Below, piece by piece: positions 41,240-64,000 of a stretch of 64,000 nt of DNA. Below the pieces are notes generated by a model, which had not been told where the DNA came from, did no database searches, and saw nothing but the letters and a program-made list of their open reading frames with translations. Source of the DNA: Cafeteria roenbergensis (Eukaryota > Sar > Bigyra > Bicosoecida > Cafeteriaceae); NCBI GenBank assembly GCA_008330645.1, contig VLTN01000088.1, positions 24,269-88,268 on the forward strand, in the 5' to 3' direction. The translations under genes and the position numbers were made by a program. Position 1 is the first letter of the stretch. Each line of letters begins with the position of its first letter.

Positions 41240-43704
41240 TCAATGAACGGTCTTCGACACACGTGTGAAGCCTGACCCAGCCGCCAAGCTGCTTCGACAG
41301 GCAGAGCGCGAGCCTCTCCGAATGAGAACACTCCTCGAACACATACTGAACACACTTGCAGGCTCATGCGCACCACACAACCAGAGACCGGCGGCGATGC
41401 CACCGCTGCAAGCGCTCCGCGCCGCCAAGCAATTCCCTGCAGCGCGCCCCCCAGCACACGCTCGCCACGCCTCGGCCATCCTGCGGCACCATTGCAACGA
41501 CAAGCAGTTGGACTCCACAAGGTGCTGACTCAGTGCCAAAACTTCGGCCAGGGCGGCATTGCCACACTGTGCAGCATCCAGGACGCTGACCTGGTCCTTG
41601 GCCTCCAGGTCGGCACCGTGCTCCAGCAGCAGCGCCGTGACATCCGCTTTGCCATTCGCGGCTGACATAATGAGAGCCGTCTGGCCACTCTGCGGCGCAC
41701 TTCACGCGAGGCGACCACGACGCCCAACCAAGCCTCCATCGCAGCCCTCCCAAACACTCCCCAGCCCACACCACCCGGTACCCGCCCACGACGCGCTGTC
41801 ACGCGGTGCAGCTCCCCCCACCTCGCTGCCTCGAAGCCAGAGCAACACGCCGCACACTCGCCCTGCGCCGCAGCTAGCTCCATCGCGACCCCGGGCGATA
41901 CTGGCGCAGCGACAGGGGCACTGTGCAGCATCCAGGACGCTGACCTGGTCCTTGGCCTCCAGGTCGGCACCGTGCTCCAGCAGCAGCGCCGTGACATCCG
42001 CTTTGCCATTCGCGGCTGACATGATGAGAGCCGTCTGGCCACTCTGCGGCGCACTTCACGCGAGGCGGCCACGGCGCCCAACCAAGCCTCCATCGCAGCC
42101 CTCCCAAACACGCCCCAGCCCACACCACCCGGTACCCGCCCACGACGCGCTGTCACGCGGTGCAGCTCCCCACACCTCGCTGCCTCGAAGCCAGAGCAAC
42201 AAGCCACACACTCGCCCTTCGCCGCAGCCAGCTCCGTCGCGACCCCAGGCGATACTGGCGCAGCGACAGGGACACTGTGCAGCATCCAGGACGCTGACCT
42301 GGTCCTTGGCCTCCAGGTCGGCACCATGCTCCAGCAGCAGCGCCGTGACATCCGCTTTGCCATTCGCGGCTGACATGATGAGAGCCGTCTGGCCACTCTG
42401 CGGCGCACTTCACGCGAGGCGGCCACGGCGCCCAACCAAGCCTCCATCGCAGCCCTCCCAAACACTCCCCAGCCCACACCACCCGGTACCCGCCCACGAC
42501 GCGCTGTCACGCGGTGCAGCTCCCCCCACCTCGCTGCCTCGAAGCCAGAGCAACAAGCCACACACTCGCCCTGCGCCGCAGCTAGCTCCATCGCGACCCC
42601 GGGCGATACTGGCGCAGCGACAGGGGCACTGTGCAGCATCCAGGACGCTGACCTGGTCCTTGGCCTCCAGGTCGGCACCGTGCTCCAGCAGCAGCGCCAT
42701 GGTAGCCACGCTGGCGGATACAACGGCAGCTTTCAGGGCTGTCTGGCCATACTGCGGCGCACTTCACGCGAGGCGACCACGACGCCGAACCAAATCTCCA
42801 TCGCAGCCCTCCCAAACACTCCCCAGCCCACACCACCCGGTACCCGCCCACGACGCGCTGTCACGCGGTGCAGCTCCCCCCACCTCGCTGCCTCGAAGCC
42901 AGAGCAACAAGCCACACACTCGCCCTGCGCCGCAGCTAGCTCCATCGCGACCCCGGGCGATACTGGCGCAGCGACAGGGGCACTGTGCAGCATCCAGGAC
43001 GCTGACCTGGTCCTTGGCCTCCAGGTCAGCACCGTGCTCCAGCAGCAGCGCCGTGACATCCGCTTTGCCATTCGCGGCTGACATGATGAGAGCCGTCTGG
43101 CCACTCTGCGGCGCACTTCACGCGAGGCGGCCACGGCGCCCAACCAAGCCTCCATCGCAGCCCTCCCAAACACTCCCCAGCCCACACCACCCGGTACCCG
43201 CCCACGACGCGCTGTCACGCGGTGCAGCTCCCCCCACCTCGCTGCCTCGAAGCCAGAGCAACAAGCCACACACTCGCCCTGCGCCGCAGCTAGCTCCATC
43301 GCGACCCCGGGCGATACTGGCGCAGCGACAGGGACACTGTGCAGCATCCAGGACGCTGACCTGGTCCTTGGCCTCCAGGTCGGCACCGTGCTCCAGCAGC
43401 AGGCGCATCAACGGAAGGCGCTCGCTCAATGCTGCAATCGCGAATGGCGACCACCGAAACTGCGAAGCCTTGCCATACAGGAGCCGTGCTTCACAACATC
43501 CAGTCTCACCGGGCTCCTTGCATTCCATTCCATGCCCCCTCCGGCTCAAGCGCTGGTCCGCGCGACCTTGCTCACGCGCTGATCTGCCCAGCTGACAGGT
43601 GCGCCCGCCTCCAACAGCCTCGTTGCTTCCTCCACGTTGCCAGCCTTTGCGGCGTTCCACAGCGCCTTCCCTGCCTCGCCCTCGCTCATCGCGGCCGCGG
43701 CCAT
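41240..43704 (-). CDS. ANK2: ankyrin protein encoded by identical-length exon-intron units
   Basis: Proposed exons, in coding order: 43,576-43,704 (cap), 43,361-43,459, 43,007-43,105, 42,653-42,751, 42,299-42,397, 41,945-42,043 and 41,240-41,689 (terminal), giving 357 residues. The cap (MAAAAMSEGEAGKALW, AAKAGNVEEATRLLEAGAPV) resembles those of the other two ankyrin genes. Each internal exon is 99 bp, phase 0, one repeat ending LLLEHGADLEAKDQ; exon starts are exactly 354 bp apart. Three internal exons and the start of the terminal exon encode the same SGQTALIMSAANGKADVTAL repeat; the first (FRWSPFAIAALSE) and third (YGQTALKAAVVSASVAT) differ. The donor is GTCAGC, not GTGAG. In the terminal exon the same bases are read as coding and form another ankyrin-like segment (VSVLDAAQCGNAALAEVLAL). 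The C-terminal end is uncertain. Confidence 0.7.
41591..43459 (-). repeat. Tandem array of 354-bp exon-intron units (ANK2)
   Basis: Six consecutive exon starts at 43,459, 43,105, 42,751, 42,397, 42,043 and 41,689 are spaced by exactly 354 bp. Four of the five 255-bp introns (upstream of 42,751, 42,397, 42,043 and 41,689, plus the one upstream of 43,105) are near-identical to each other by eye, differing at scattered single bases. Because 354 is divisible by three, spurious long frames stay open across the array on both strands. Confidence 0.85.
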
Positions 43705-57900: not shown

Positions 57901-59691
57901 GCTGCGGCGAGAAACGCCGAGCGAGCGGCGGCAGAGGAGGCAGCGGCAGCGGCGGCGGCAGCGGCGGCGGCGGCAGCTGCTTCGGCGGCGGCTTCGGCAG
58001 CCGACTCAGAGGCCAAGGCTAAAGCGGAAGCCCGCAGTGCCGCCGCCGCCAAGGCGGCCGCTGCCGCCAAGGCGCAAGCAGATGCTGCTGCCAAGGCGTC
58101 AGCTGACGCGGCCGCCAAGGCTGCTGCGGACAGGGCTCGAGCCGAGGCGTCGGCGCGTGCAGAGGCGGAGCGGGCGGCCTCGCAGCGGACGCAGGCCACG
58201 GGAGGCGCCGGCTTCTTCAAGGAGCGGGCGGCGGCGATCAAGGCGGAGCTGCGGCGGCGGGAGGCGGCGGTGGGACCGGGCGCGGCGCGTTGGACGGACT
58301 CCAGCTTCGAGGGCGCGGCGGCGCGGTACGGAAGCTCGGGCAAGGGCGGCAAGCTCGACAAGTACCAGCAGTGGAGGCACTTTCCAGAGCAGTTCCCCGG
58401 CGCGGCGATCACCAAGGCGGACTTCTCCTCCGACGACCTCGTGCAGGGGACGCTGGGCGACTGCTGGCTCATCGCCGCGATGGCCGTCGTCGCCCAGCGG
58501 CCGGAGCTGGTGGCGCGGGTCTTCCCGGTGCGCGAGTCGCCCAAGGGAATCTGGCCGGTAGATATTTGCTTCAACAAGGAATGGACGACCATGTGGGTGG
58601 ACGACCGGTTCCCCATGTGGAAGCCCGGGCTGAGCAGCAAGGGCAAGCCGCTCAAGGGCTCCGTCTACGTGACGTCGGCAGACGAGGACGAGATGTGGCC
58701 GTGCCTGCTCGAGAAGGCCTACGCCAAGTTCTACGGCTCCTACGCCAGCCTCGACGGCGGCCAGTCGAACAACGCGCTCGCCGACCTGACGGGCGGCATC
58801 GCTGACAAGTGGAACCTCGAGTCGAAAAAGGCCGAGATCGCGTCGGGCGAGCTCTGGAGCAAGCTGCAGGAGGTGGTGCGAAACGGCCACCTGGTGGCGT
58901 GCGGCTCGCACAGCGGCTCGGACACGACGCAAAACAAAAACGGCATCGTACAGGGCCACGCGTTTTCCGTGCTCAGCGCCAAGGACGCGAACGACGGCCG
59001 AGGCAACTCGCTGCGCATGCTCACAGTGCGAAACCCGCACGGGAAAACAGAGTGGACGGGCCGCTACGGGGACACGGACTTGGTGCGCTGGACCCAGCGG
59101 CTCAAGGCAGAGATGGGGCACGACCCCTCAGCAAGCGGGGACGACGGCACGTTTTGCATGCTCTGGGAGGACTTCGTGGAGAACTTTGCCGTGGTGTACC
59201 TGTGCCGCGTCCTCACGCCGCACGACCCGGCAACGGGCAAGGGATGGCACCTGTACACGGCCAGCGCAGAGTGGAAGAAGGGTTCCACTGCAGGGGGCTG
59301 CTCCAACTTCCCAACGTGCGTGAACAACCCCCAGTGGCTGGTGCGGCCGACGCGCCCGTGCAGCGGGCTGTTCAGCATGAGGCTCATGGAGTCGCAGGGG
59401 GCTGGCCGCGAGTACACAATTCACATCGGCATCACGGTGGCGGCCAAGGGCGGCAAGCGCATTCGGTCAGTGTACGCGGGCGAGACGCGTGCCTCCTCTG
59501 ATTCGTACACCAACGCGCGCGAGCAGGTGTGCGAGGCGGACTTGCGGCCGGAGCCTCTCACGATCATGCCAAGCACCTTCCACCCGGACAAGGAGTCTGC
59601 GTTCATGGTCACCGTGGCGACAACTGAGCCCCTGCAAGGCGGTCCCGACGCCGCCCTCGAACGGCTGGACGAGTCCGTGCCAGCCTCGTAG
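51906..59691 (+). CDS. Transmembrane calpain (DEK1-like phytocalpain architecture)
   Basis: Exon 1 is 51,906-52,165 and exon 2 is 52,557-59,691, joined in phase 2, giving 2,464 residues. About the first 1,135 residues hold many hydrophobic segments separated by Ala/Gly/Ser-rich loops. A long linker follows; residues about 1,800-1,965 are an Arg/Glu/Ala helix. The calpain protease core runs about 2,010-2,290: catalytic Cys in GTLGDCWLIAAM (Cys about 2,056), His in QGHAFSV (about 2,221) and Asn in RNPHGKTEW (about 2,246), with spacings normal for active calpains. A C2-like domain closes the protein. The order membrane region, linker, CysPc, C2L is that of plant DEK1 and of the TML-calpains known from several protists. 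DEK1 acts at the plasma membrane; the role here is unknown. Plant DEK1 is about 2,150 residues. Confidence 0.92.
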
Positions 59692-60625: not shown

Positions 60626-60727
60626 AGATTTGGGGCATATCCAGCCTCGGCAAAGCCCGCGAGTGAACGTCGCTGCTCCCCGGCCCTCCCAGCCAGCGAT
60701 CGCCCTGCACCCCGCGCATCTGACAGC

Positions 60728-63700
60728 ATGGCCACCCCTGCTATGGATGACAATGCAATGGCGAGCGCGCTCTGGGAGGCGGCCAAGGCCGGGAACACCG
60801 CCGAGGCCCGGAGGCTGCTCGACGAGGGCGCGCCGGTGGACTGGAAAACGACGCCGCCGTGAGCGTCGAGGCTGTAGGCTCGTTCCCCGCTCGTTGCCAA
60901 CGGAATGGGGAGCGATGCAACCAGCACACTGCCTTTCTCACACTCGATGGGCTGCTGCGCCACGAACCGCGCTGGAAAACGTGGGGGGTATCGACCGTGC
61001 AGGCGATCGAGCCGGCAGCGAAGCGAGCTGCGTGCCGCTGGGCGGCCAGCGTGACGCGGCGCCGGTCGTAGGCCGTGCGAACCGTGGTTTTTGAGGGCAC
61101 GCGGCCTCGCAGTATGGTGCTACGGCGCTTGCTGAGGCTGCGTCCGGTGGCCACAAGGACACGGCGGAGCTGCTGCTGGACCGCGGCGCCGACCTGGAGG
61201 CCAAGGACCGGGTGAGTGCGGCCGTGTGTGTTTGCTGCGCGACGGGCCGCGCCGGGCAGCACGGGCAGGCGCGAGGGGGCTATGGCGGTGACGCGTCGGG
61301 GCCCCGTACTCCTGTTGCGGTCGGGCGAGTGAGGCGGCGCTGGTGTGGGGGCATGTCGGTAGGGGAGCGATGGTGCGCCGAGCTGCGGTGCCATGAGAGC
61401 CTGCAACGTCGCAGAACGGTGCTAGGGCGCTTGCTGAGGCTGCATCCGGTGGCCACAAGGACACGGTGGAGCTGCTGCTGGACCGGGGCGCCGACCTGGA
61501 GGCCAAGGACAGCGTGAGTGCGGCGGCCGTGTGTGTTGCTGCGCAACGGGCCGCGCCGGGCGTCACGGGCGGGCGTGTGGGGCGGTGATGGGGATGTCGT
61601 GTCGAGGCGTCGTGCTCCTGTGGCGGGCGGTCGGACTTGTGAAGGGGGCGCTGGCGAGGCGGGGAGATGTCGGTAGGGGAGCGATGGTGCGCCGAGGTGC
61701 GGTGACATGCGGGCCTGCGACGTCGCAGGGTGGTGCTACGGCGCTTGTTCTGGCTGCATCCGGTGGCCACACGGACACGGTGGAGCTGCTGCTGGACCGC
61801 GGCGCCGACCTGGAGGCCAAGGACCGCGTGAGTGCGGCGGCCGTGTGTGTTGCTGCGCGACGGGCCGCGCCGGGCGTCACGGGCGGGCGTGTGGGGCGGT
61901 GATGGGGATGTCGTGTCGAGGCGTCGTGCTCCTGTGGCGGGCGGTCGGACTTGTGAAGGGGGCGCTGGCGAGGCGGGGAGATGTCGGTGGGGGAGCGATG
62001 GTGCGCCGAGGTGCGGTGACATGAGGGCCTGCGACGTCGCAGTATGGTTCTACGGCGCTTGTGCTGGCTGCATCCGGTGGCCACACGGACACGGTGGAGC
62101 TGCTGCTGGACCGCGGCGCCGACCTGGAGGCCAAGGGCTGGGTGAGCGCGGCGGCCGTGTGTGTTGCTGCGCGACGGGCCGCGCCGGGCGTCACGGGCGG
62201 GCCGAGAGGGCGGGATGATGGCGATGTCGCGAGGCGTCGTGCTGCCCTGTGGGGGGCGGTCGGACTTGTGAGGCGGCGGCTGGCGGGGCAGGGGGGCATG
62301 TCGGTAGGGAAGCGATGGTGCGACGAGGTGCGGTGACATGCGGGCCTACGACGTCGCAGTATGGTTCTACGGCGCTTGCTCGGGCTGCATCCGGTGGCCA
62401 CACGGACACGGTGGAGCTGCTGCTGGACCGGGGCGCCGACCTGGAGGCCAAGATCGGGTGAGTGCGGCGGCCTCGTGTGTTGCTGCGCGACGGGGCGCGC
62501 CGGGCGTCTCGGGCGGGCGTGTGGGGCGGGCGGCGATGGCGATGACGCGTGGGGGCGTCGTGCTCCTGTGGCGGTCCGCCGTGTGAGGGGGCGCTGGCGG
62601 GGCGGGGTGATGTCGGTAGGGAGCGATGGTGCGACGAGGTGCGGTGACATGCGGGCCTGCGACGTCGCAGGATGGTGCTACGGCGCTTGTTCAGGCTGCA
62701 TCCGGTGGCCACAAGGACACGGTGGAGCTGCTGCTGGACCGGGGCGCCGACCTGGAGGCCAAGAGCCGCGTGAGTGCGGCAGGCATGTCATGCTGTGCGA
62801 CGTGCCGCGCCGGGCGTCACGGGCGAGCGAGTGGGGCGGTGCTGGGGATATCGTGTCGAGGCGTCGTGCTCCTGTGGCGGGCGGTCGGGCGTGTGAAGTC
62901 GGTGGCTGGCGAGGCGGGGGAGCTTGTCGGTAGGGGAGCGATGGTGCGACAAGGTGCGGTGATGTGCGGACTAAGGGCGTCGCAGAATGAGGCTACGGCG
63001 CTTGTTCGGGCTGCATCCGGTGGCCACGTGGACACGGTGGAGCTGCTGCTGGACCGGGGCGCCGACCTGGAGGCCAAGGACAGCGTGAGTGCGGCGGCCG
63101 TGTGTGTTGCTGCGCGACGGGCCGCGCCGGGCGTCACGGGCGGGCCGTGTGGGGCGGGCGGCGGTGGCGATGTCGCGTCGGGTGTCGTGCTCCTGTGGCT
63201 CGCGGTCCGGGTGTGTGAGGCAGGCGCTGGCGAGGCGGGAGATGTCGGTAGGGGAGCGATGGTGCGACGAGGTGCGGTGACATGCGGGCCTGCGACGTCG
63301 CAGGATGGTCGTACGGCGCTTGTTCTGGCTGCATGCGGTGGCCACAAGGACACGGTGGAGCTGCTGCTGGACCGCGGCGCCGACCTGGAGGCCAAGGGCC
63401 GCGTGAGTGCGGCGGCCGTGTGTGTTGCTGCGCGACGGGCCGCGCCGGGCGTCACGGGCGGGCGCGGGCGACGTGGCGATGGCGATGATGCGTCGGGGCG
63501 TCGTGCTCCTGTGGCGGGCCGGCGTGTGAGGCGGCGCTGGCGGGGCGGGGAGCATGTCGGTAGGGGAGCGATGTGCGACGAGGTGCGGTGGCGTGCGGGC
63601 CTGCGACGTCGCAGTATGGTGAGCCAACGCTTGCTGCAGCAGCACGACGTGGCCACAAGGACACGGTGGAGCTGCTGCTGGACCGGGGCGCCGACCTGGA

Positions 63701-64000
63701 GGCCAAGGACAGCGTGAGTGCGGCCGGCCGTGTGTGTTTGCTGCGCGCCGGGCCGCGCCGGGCGTCACGGGCGGGCGGGGGGGGCGGCGGCGATGGCGAT
63801 ATCGCGTCGGGTCGTGGTGCCTCTGTGGCGGGCGGGCGGGCGTGTGAGGCGACGCTGGCGGCGGGCGGGTGCATGTCGGTAGGGGAGCGATGGTGCGACG
63901 AGGTGCGGTGACATGCGGGCGGCGCGACGTCGCAGTATGGTTACACGGCGCTTGTGCGGCTGCATCCCGTGGCCACAAGGACACGGTGGAGCTGCTGCTG
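60728..64000 (+). CDS. ANK3: ankyrin exon array, open at the window edge, with several broken units
   Basis: The cap exon starts at the ATG at 60,728 (MATPAMDDNAMASALW, AAKAGNTAEARRLLDEGAPV). Repeat exons, 99 bp and phase 0 unless noted: 61,113-61,211, 61,415-61,513, 61,729-61,827, 62,043-62,141, 62,360-62,457 (98 bp), 62,671-62,769, 62,986-63,084, 63,304-63,402, 63,615-63,713 and one from 63,936 past the edge. Each encodes xGxTAL, then AASGGHxDTVELLLDRGADLEAK. The introns (GTGAGTGCGG to CGACGTCGCAG) are also alike. Problems: the cap exon's only good donor leaves 131 bp (phase 2), which does not fit the phase-0 array; the 62,360 exon has lost one base; the 63,936 exon has lost one base after its sixth codon. 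It may be a pseudogene, or some exons may be skipped; RNA evidence would decide. Confidence 0.65.
61113..64000 (+). repeat. Tandem array of about 302-321 bp exon-intron units (ANK3)
   Basis: Ten exon starts are spaced 302, 314, 314, 317, 311, 315, 318, 311 and 321 bp. Exon and intron repeat together. The introns share blocks such as GCGACGGGCCGCGCCGGGCG and GTAGGGGAGCGATGGTGCG but differ by small indels, unlike the exact 354-bp period of ANK2. The array continues past the window. Confidence 0.85.

Follow-up and report, generated by a model that had tools for sequence, protein, structure and literature searches.

A tandem array with a period of 314 was found at 61107–64000 of the 64,000-nt stretch of DNA from Cafeteria roenbergensis (now C. 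burkhardae), a bicosoecid stramenopile, that was analysed here and is referred to as the window. The array, on contig C88, is the 5′ part of one gene, in which an N-terminal cap (N-cap) exon is followed by ankyrin exons of 33 codons. When the genome (36,303,456 bases, 167 contigs) was searched for related sequences, the gene proved to belong to a large family. The sequences suggest that dozens of genes are built like engineered ankyrin binders and that their products may be fast-changing molecular recognisers. We put at about 0.6 the probability that the family is an ankyrin-binder repertoire, diversified by exon turnover, short exchange and selection, with a predicted role in recognition.

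Architecture of the window gene and its family

The window gene, all on the plus strand, is made up as follows.

60650–60727, plus strand: short leader/core promoter before the start codon, about 70–80 nt common to several array pairs, with differing flanks beyond
60728–60858, plus strand: N-cap exon (MATPAMDDNAMASALWEAAKAGNTAEARRLLDEGAPVDWK...), 131 nt, donor GTGAGC, frame broken relative to 21 other arrays (132 nt)
60859–61112, plus strand: intron 1, donor GTGAGC, acceptor CGCAG
61113–61211, plus strand: ankyrin exon 1, YGATALAEAASGGHKDTAELLLDRGADLEAKDR
61415–61513, plus strand: ankyrin exon 2, NGARALAEAASGGHKDTVELLLDRGADLEAKDS
61729–61827, plus strand: ankyrin exon 3, GGATALVLAASGGHTDTVELLLDRGADLEAKDR
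62043–62141, plus strand: ankyrin exon 4, YGSTALVLAASGGHTDTVELLLDRGADLEAKGW
62360–62457, plus strand: ankyrin exon 5, 98 nt, frame broken
62671–62769, plus strand: ankyrin exon 6, DGATALVQAASGGHKDTVELLLDRGADLEAKSR
62986–63084, plus strand: ankyrin exon 7, NEATALVRAASGGHVDTVELLLDRGADLEAKDS
63304–63402, plus strand: ankyrin exon 8, DGRTALVLAACGGHKDTVELLLDRGADLEAKGR
63615–63713, plus strand: ankyrin exon 9, YGEPTLAAAARRGHKDTVELLLDRGADLEAKDS
63936–64000, plus strand: ankyrin exon 10, truncated where the contig ends; compared with the neighbouring exons it has lost 1 nt

Contig C88 ends with base 64000 of the window, so that the assembly truncates the array, and the C-terminal cap (C-cap) of this copy, if any, lies beyond the contig end. 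All nine complete ankyrin exons are preceded by AG and followed by GT. Introns interrupt the repeat in phase 0 between ankyrin positions 2 and 3, so that each exon starts with position 3 as its codon 1 and closes with positions 1–2 as its codons 32–33. The last 4 kb of the window are 70.5% GC. When the N-cap and exons 1–4 were joined and analysed with Pfam, a match to PF00023 of 118.7 bits (cut-off 21.1) was obtained, and the window gene is accordingly an ankyrin repeat protein gene, with 33-residue repeats scoring over the cut-off (PF00023/PF12796). The initial annotation of this DNA had begun the gene downstream of the N-cap exon and had counted ten exons of 33 codons; eight such exons are in frame, the fifth being 98 nt long and the tenth incomplete.

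A single window unit gave 379 DNA matches in the genome. At E ≤ 0.001, the N-cap peptide matched 89 places and a C-cap peptide of composite sequence 84, with distant relatives making up the weaker of these peptide matches. Twenty-five arrays with 246 complete exons were read, several of them cut by the locus edge; arrays outside these 25 include C43, C10, C12, C14, C51, C68, C79, C129 and the start of C8. Exactly 99 nt were found in 239 of the 246 internal exons, and 237 were in frame without a stop codon, whereas only 105 of 217 introns had the modal length of their own array (Fisher 1e-36). The exons are thus kept in frame while the introns drift. Random decay of the family as a whole was rejected on these counts, and some members may decay. 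Translation through the introns was likewise rejected, since the modal intron of C91 measures 179 nt, which is not a multiple of three.

An N-cap exon was present in 22 of the 25 arrays, with 132 nt in 21 of them and 131 nt in the window copy. The read segments of C20, C91 and C15:602.9k contained none; for C20 and C91, an N-cap match lies just outside the segment (2 bases and ~0.9 kb away, respectively). In 16 arrays, 600 nt or more of 3′ flank could be read; 11 of these end in a short, phase-0 C-cap exon, which is divergent in one case. Ankyrin was the only Pfam assignment in the joined N-cap and four units, and the C-cap gave nothing convincing. The in-frame stretch upstream was scanned in two arrays, C88 and C55, and gave no Pfam domain over the cut-off; no NACHT, NB-ARC, ROC-COR or death-effector domain was found in the window gene and its C55 relative. 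Of 22 arrays, 20 have this upstream frame closed by a stop codon, and in the other two it runs to the locus edge. Because of these stops and the lack of an upstream Pfam domain, the protein is best read as a capped ankyrin solenoid and nothing else; an upstream exon may have escaped notice. Upstream similarity between arrays often begins only 70–80 nt before the ATG, and further out in some pairs.

Interchangeable repeats between an N-cap and a C-cap, with no further part, are the architecture of designed ankyrin repeat proteins (DARPins), to which the initial annotation had compared the array. The analogy is stronger than it had claimed, because there are dedicated N-cap exons, mostly C-cap exons where the 3′ end is readable, and no other domain in the tested parts.

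Position, rate and turnover of the variation

Amino-acid differences within arrays were counted by ankyrin position, the nine non-intact exons and the cut tenth exon of the window being left out. The highest values were obtained at positions 3 (0.71), 10 (0.70), 2 (0.64) and 13 (0.63), followed by 1 and 5 (0.58 each), 14 (0.55), 9 (0.51) and 17 (0.34); all other positions gave 0.27 or less. Eight of the 33 positions (1, 2, 3, 5, 9, 10, 13 and 14) were taken as the variable set, and 201 distinct eight-residue signatures were found among 237 exons. Classic DARPins are randomised at positions 2, 3, 5, 13, 14 and 33, with 33 in place of 10, and their positions 26 and 33 are varied. Five of these six randomised positions are among the top eight here (P = 0.0013). 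In another ankyrin library, described in PMC3308923, positions 2, 3, 5, 10, 13 and 14, facing one exposed binding surface, were randomised, and 26 and 33 were held constant as not directly in that surface. All six are included in the eight most variable positions of the family (hypergeometric P = 2.5e-5), in which positions 26 and 33 vary little (0.11 and 0.22). The variation is concentrated on binding-surface positions, and is also present at 1 and 9 and, less so, at 17.

The initial annotation had described such a pattern from the window alone. The main part of that observation holds, for a family larger than was noted, and several of its details needed correction. The residues at exon codon 1, after GGH and at the last two codons are as it listed them; at codon 8 the exons carry, in succession, E,E,L,L,R,Q,R,L,A, where it had given "E,L,L,L,L?". 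Of the eight in-frame window exons, only two differ from the majority residue at position 13 and only one at position 14; across the family, both positions are strongly variable.

Rates were compared in 21 arrays, each with five or more in-frame units; the four arrays with fewer such units were left out. At bases 1, 2 and 3, the mean pairwise differences were 0.417, 0.407 and 0.319 in variable codons and 0.095, 0.084 and 0.148 in framework codons, with 0.131 in introns. Bases 1 and 2 of the variable codons thus differ about three times as much as introns (0.41 vs 0.13), and those of the framework codons less than introns. The first and the second bases of variable codons each exceeded their own third bases in 17 of 21 arrays (Wilcoxon P 2.8e-4), and the nonsynonymous difference (pN) at variable codons exceeded the intron difference in 21 of 21 arrays when the variable set was chosen from the other arrays. 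One-step codon changes were divided into 343 nonsynonymous (N) and 84 synonymous (S) at variable codons, compared with 281 N and 263 S at framework codons (Fisher 5e-21). A contrast between surface and framework codons had been foreseen in the initial annotation, which took equal rates as the outcome that would speak against it; the rates are far from equal (~0.41 and 0.09 at bases 1 and 2).

The contrast was also seen between units that are closely similar in their introns. Where the introns were identical (14 pairs, three arrays), bases 1 and 2 differed by 0.179 at variable codons and 0.043 at framework codons; where they were at most 1% different (35 pairs, seven arrays), the values were 0.259 and 0.057. 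In C91, codons 20–33 are identical in 19 in-frame units (the last unit aside), codons 1–16 occur in 18 versions, and the 18 modal-length introns each depart from their common consensus at 0–5 of 179 bases.

The contents of the arrays turn over faster than the upstream DNA. Over 700 bp of upstream DNA, C60 and C61 have 96.6% identity, and C136 matches each of them at ~97% over 507 bp, yet these three arrays (15, 14 and 7 repeats) have no variable signature in common. Likewise, C88 and C55 encode identical 40-residue N-cap peptides and share no signature among 8 and 14 units. Signatures in common were found between C52 and C59 (6 of 14) and between C91 and C15 (4 of 20). C52 and C59 carry near-identical duplicate arrays at two contig starts (C52:1-6500 and C59:1-6000; 98.5% over 3213 bp).

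Within exons, four-gamete conflicts were frequent; C91, for example, has them at 124 of its 406 site pairs. Short exchange would be expected to leave such conflicts, which can also arise by repeated mutation. The initial annotation had concluded from the similar introns that units are copied whole. This was not borne out, since intron-identical pairs differ by 0.18 at variable codons and by 0.086 at framework third bases, which points to exchange below the scale of the unit.

According to the reading that we prefer, a family gene would consist of an N-cap exon, a few to more than 20 interchangeable 33-residue repeats (one phase-0 exon each) and a C-cap exon. Repeats would be duplicated, deleted and patched by unequal crossing-over and by short exchange between similar units, and selection would favour new residues at the binding surface. 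The proteins, in which no added domain was found, would act in the cytoplasm as a binder repertoire against changing partners, for which non-self (virus, virophage, ingested prey) is a first guess. C. burkhardae is a species known as the host of a giant virus and a virophage. A fuller version is tentative and, taken as a whole, rather unlikely: a germline repertoire of dozens of free-standing ankyrin binders, subject to whole-exon turnover and sub-exon exchange with selection for new surfaces, would form an antibody-like library without a signalling domain, and its products would serve as intracellular neutralisers or adaptors against viruses or other non-self.

Relaxed constraint, decay and active diversification as alternatives

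A number of results count against a selected repertoire. At variable codons, pN was higher than the synonymous difference (pS) in 13 of 21 arrays, which is not significant (P = 0.11), and for the classic DARPin six (2, 3, 5, 13, 14, 33), set beforehand, pN exceeded pS in 11 of 21 (P = 0.95). The one-step N/S ratio was just 1.23 times the neutral opportunity (P = 0.086). In the recent duplicates C52 and C59, 2 of 11 exon differences fell at the eight variable positions (seven units), which is about chance. Framework pS (0.167) was above the intron difference (0.131), being lower in 5 of 21 arrays (P = 0.006), and units with identical introns still show a difference of 0.086 at framework third bases. 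The latter indicates that exon and intron histories are partly uncoupled; on both grounds the intron is an imperfect neutral yardstick. Moreover, pairs and arrays share ancestry, so that the P values are optimistic. Nine of the 246 exons are not intact, 5 of the 16 arrays that could be assessed for a C-cap have none and continue into other repeated DNA, and the window copy has three 1-nt losses in ~1 kb of coding sequence (N-cap exon, exon 5 and exon 10).

The same genome holds a second ankyrin family, with 34-residue units in one open frame (ARTDIGATPLYxACxNGHDAVxRLL), at L002, L003 (C28), L004 (C126) and L005 (C162). In a sample of 46 units from four loci, which amount to two near-duplicate pairs, this intronless family varied at a similar set of positions (13, 3, 10, an inserted residue, 14, 32, 2 and 9), most of its variation being on the concave surface. 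This also counts against selection specific to the window family, whose pattern may partly reflect general ankyrin constraint.

Relaxed constraint combined with concerted evolution would account for much of this: surface positions would be tolerant of change, conversion would homogenise the rest, and neither selection for diversity nor recognition would be involved. The near equality of pN and pS, the low one-step ratio, the duplicates without an excess at variable sites and the intronless family are all in line with it. It does not readily explain why bases 1 and 2 of the variable codons differ about three times as much as both introns and framework third bases, or why they also exceed their own third bases. 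Furthermore, positions 18, 21, 25, 26, 31 and 33, which we take to be exposed but outside the concave face, differ by only 0.11–0.22. Multi-base changes have probably raised the pS of variable codons. Relaxed constraint with concerted evolution is considered unlikely. The comparison of nonsynonymous change with synonymous and intron change, which the initial annotation had proposed as a check, gave a divided answer, in that variable codons change faster than introns and the excess of pN over pS is not significant; its interpretation as a whole is partly supported.

The variability could also be actively made; targeted hypermutation, mutagenesis of a retroelement type and programmed somatic rearrangement of exons are the conceivable mechanisms. 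Changes at variable codons are often multi-base (758 multi-base vs 427 single-base codon pairs), and the mosaic within 99 nt seen as four-gamete conflicts would fit such a process as well. Targeted mutagenesis should leave excess silent change at variable codons, but none was found: in four-fold codons for the same residue, third bases differed by 0.149 at variable and 0.171 at framework codons (P = 0.37). Silent third-base change is not higher at variable codons, which means that these codons are not simply mutating faster. The A–G share of differences was 0.285 at variable and framework sites alike, other types differing somewhat. An active process of this kind is very improbable.

A further alternative concerns the window copy alone, which may be a decaying pseudogene or a silent repeat donor in an otherwise functional family. 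Its three 1-nt losses would fit this, as would the existence of truncated relatives, represented by the 5 of 16 arrays with a readable 3′ flank in which the C-cap is missing. On the other side, the array lies at a contig end within a repeat region, and the AG and GT borders are kept in all nine complete exons. One-nucleotide indel errors are common in assemblies made with Canu from raw PacBio reads and polished by mapping. The BVI assembly, the presumed source of the contig, was made in this way (PMC6972860) and is of the kind in which such errors arise. Either genuine decay or faulty assembly next to repeats at the contig end could lie behind the three losses, and we regard loss of function in this copy as possible though doubtful.

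Relation to known repeat systems and genomic setting

With DARPins and other engineered libraries, the family has in common an N-cap, internal 33-residue repeats with a near-constant framework, and a C-cap; with the library of PMC3308923, it also shares the variable positions 2, 3, 5, 10, 13 and 14. Many DARPins were found among the best 60 of 384 sequence matches in PDB. In contrast to DARPins, the Cafeteria family is natural and genomic, has an intron between repeats, varies also at positions 1 and 9 but little at 26 and 33, and has the framework GGHKDTVELLLDRGADLEAK instead of GHLEIVEVLLKxGADVNA. By its build and the placing of its variation, the family would work like a DARPin library, with binding as the predicted activity.

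Natural systems of a related kind have been described. Fungal NLRs with hypervariable ankyrin (ANK) repeats (Podospora and others; PMC4986451) likewise have near-identical internal repeats that turn over, and positive selection on the concave surface of the repeats was reported for them. Their repeats stand behind a NACHT or NB-ARC and an effector domain, none of which was found in the Cafeteria genes, where each repeat has a separate exon and the host is a stramenopile flagellate. Brown-algal ROCO-LRR genes (PMC11378527) are closer in host and exon structure, being stramenopile genes with one repeat per exon in constant phase, with exon shuffling and diversifying selection on the concave side. 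The brown-algal NB-TPR genes are of the same kind, with one repeat per exon, shuffling and concave-side selection (PMC5772912, PMC11378527). The Cafeteria family agrees with this exon pattern, its tandem arrays having one repeat per exon of constant length and phase (239/246 exons of 99 nt, phase 0). It differs in that the repeats are ANK and not LRR or TPR, that its exons are in phase 0 whereas the LRR exons are in phase 2, and that the brown-algal repeats are attached to a GTPase or NB domain. No attached ROC-COR or NB-ARC was found in the window gene and the C55 relative, and no NACHT or NB-ARC in the upstream stretches of C88 and C55. The family is classed neither with the fungal NLRs nor with the brown-algal ROCO or NB-TPR receptors, since the scans did not reveal the nucleotide-binding or GTPase domain by which these groups are defined. 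In PMC11378527, 15 further S. japonica sequences with shuffling LRR exons are described, most of them with LRR motifs only, as a possible reservoir.

The precedents bear on the partners of the putative binders. Instead of pathogens or prey, the repertoire could recognise self or kin (allorecognition, mating) or many internal partners. Among fungal NLRs, those with hypervariable WD repeats include heterokaryon-incompatibility genes, and the ANK and TPR repeats of others evolve alike (PMC4986451). The genes up-regulated in the stationary phase of C. burkhardae show a modest enrichment in ankyrin-domain genes (log2 0.75, adjusted P 0.026); this fits no target in particular, and PMC7852580 gives the enrichment for the ankyrin-domain class without stating whether this family is part of it. 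No NOD or death-effector domain was found in the parts scanned with Pfam, which speaks against recognition of self or kin, and we consider such partners improbable.

If transcribed, the family preferred here as a binder repertoire would be a naturally evolved counterpart of a designed binder library, sharing its architecture and most of the variable positions selected by engineers. It would also extend repeat-exon shuffling, known from brown-algal LRR and TPR receptors, to ankyrins in a heterotrophic stramenopile, the fungal NLR ankyrins and the brown-algal LRR exons being the close precedents. Given four published strain genomes and a known giant virus and virophage, intracellular recognition repertoires of a protist would then become directly testable. 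A literature search for Cafeteria and ankyrin gave, among the titles of the matches listed, no publication on this family, and neither the eLife virophage paper nor the genome paper uses the word "ankyrin" in its main text. In IMG/VR, four weak viral ankyrin loci (47% identity) were found.

With regard to genomic position, 24 of 31 N-cap matches on contigs of known length are no more than 20 kb away from a contig end, where 6.7 would be expected, the 31 being a biased subset of the 46 matches with E ≤ 1e-9, for which some contigs were sampled near their ends. Contigs with N-cap loci near the ends include C88, C20, C60, C29, C2 and C43. The excess may reflect a subtelomeric position or assembly breaks at repeats. 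No exact match to three copies of TTAGGG or of TTTAGGG was present in the genome, and a subtelomeric position is thus not shown.

Several other sequences accompany the arrays. A sequence of ~0.44–1.1 kb, ~91–99% identical between copies, was observed in 3′ flanks on C55, C59, C6, C31, C135, C15, C17, C50 and C52, in some arrays directly at the place expected for the C-cap; it may be a mobile or contig-end repeat. On C99 and C31, an A+T-rich element of ~1.15 kb with palindromes (~95% identical) follows or interrupts the arrays. Within the window, a second, more distant member of the family was found:

41367–43704, minus strand: second family member, with an N-cap match at 43588–43704, units of ~354 bp and a C-cap match at 41367–41462

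Four of its repeats have the same peptide, SGQTALIMSAANGKADVTALLLEHGADLEAKDQ, which indicates an array that is homogenised and not diverse. About 1 kb upstream of the window ankyrin gene, a calpain-family cysteine protease gene (PF00648, 1e-61, with calpain domain III) lies at 58399–59688 on the plus strand.

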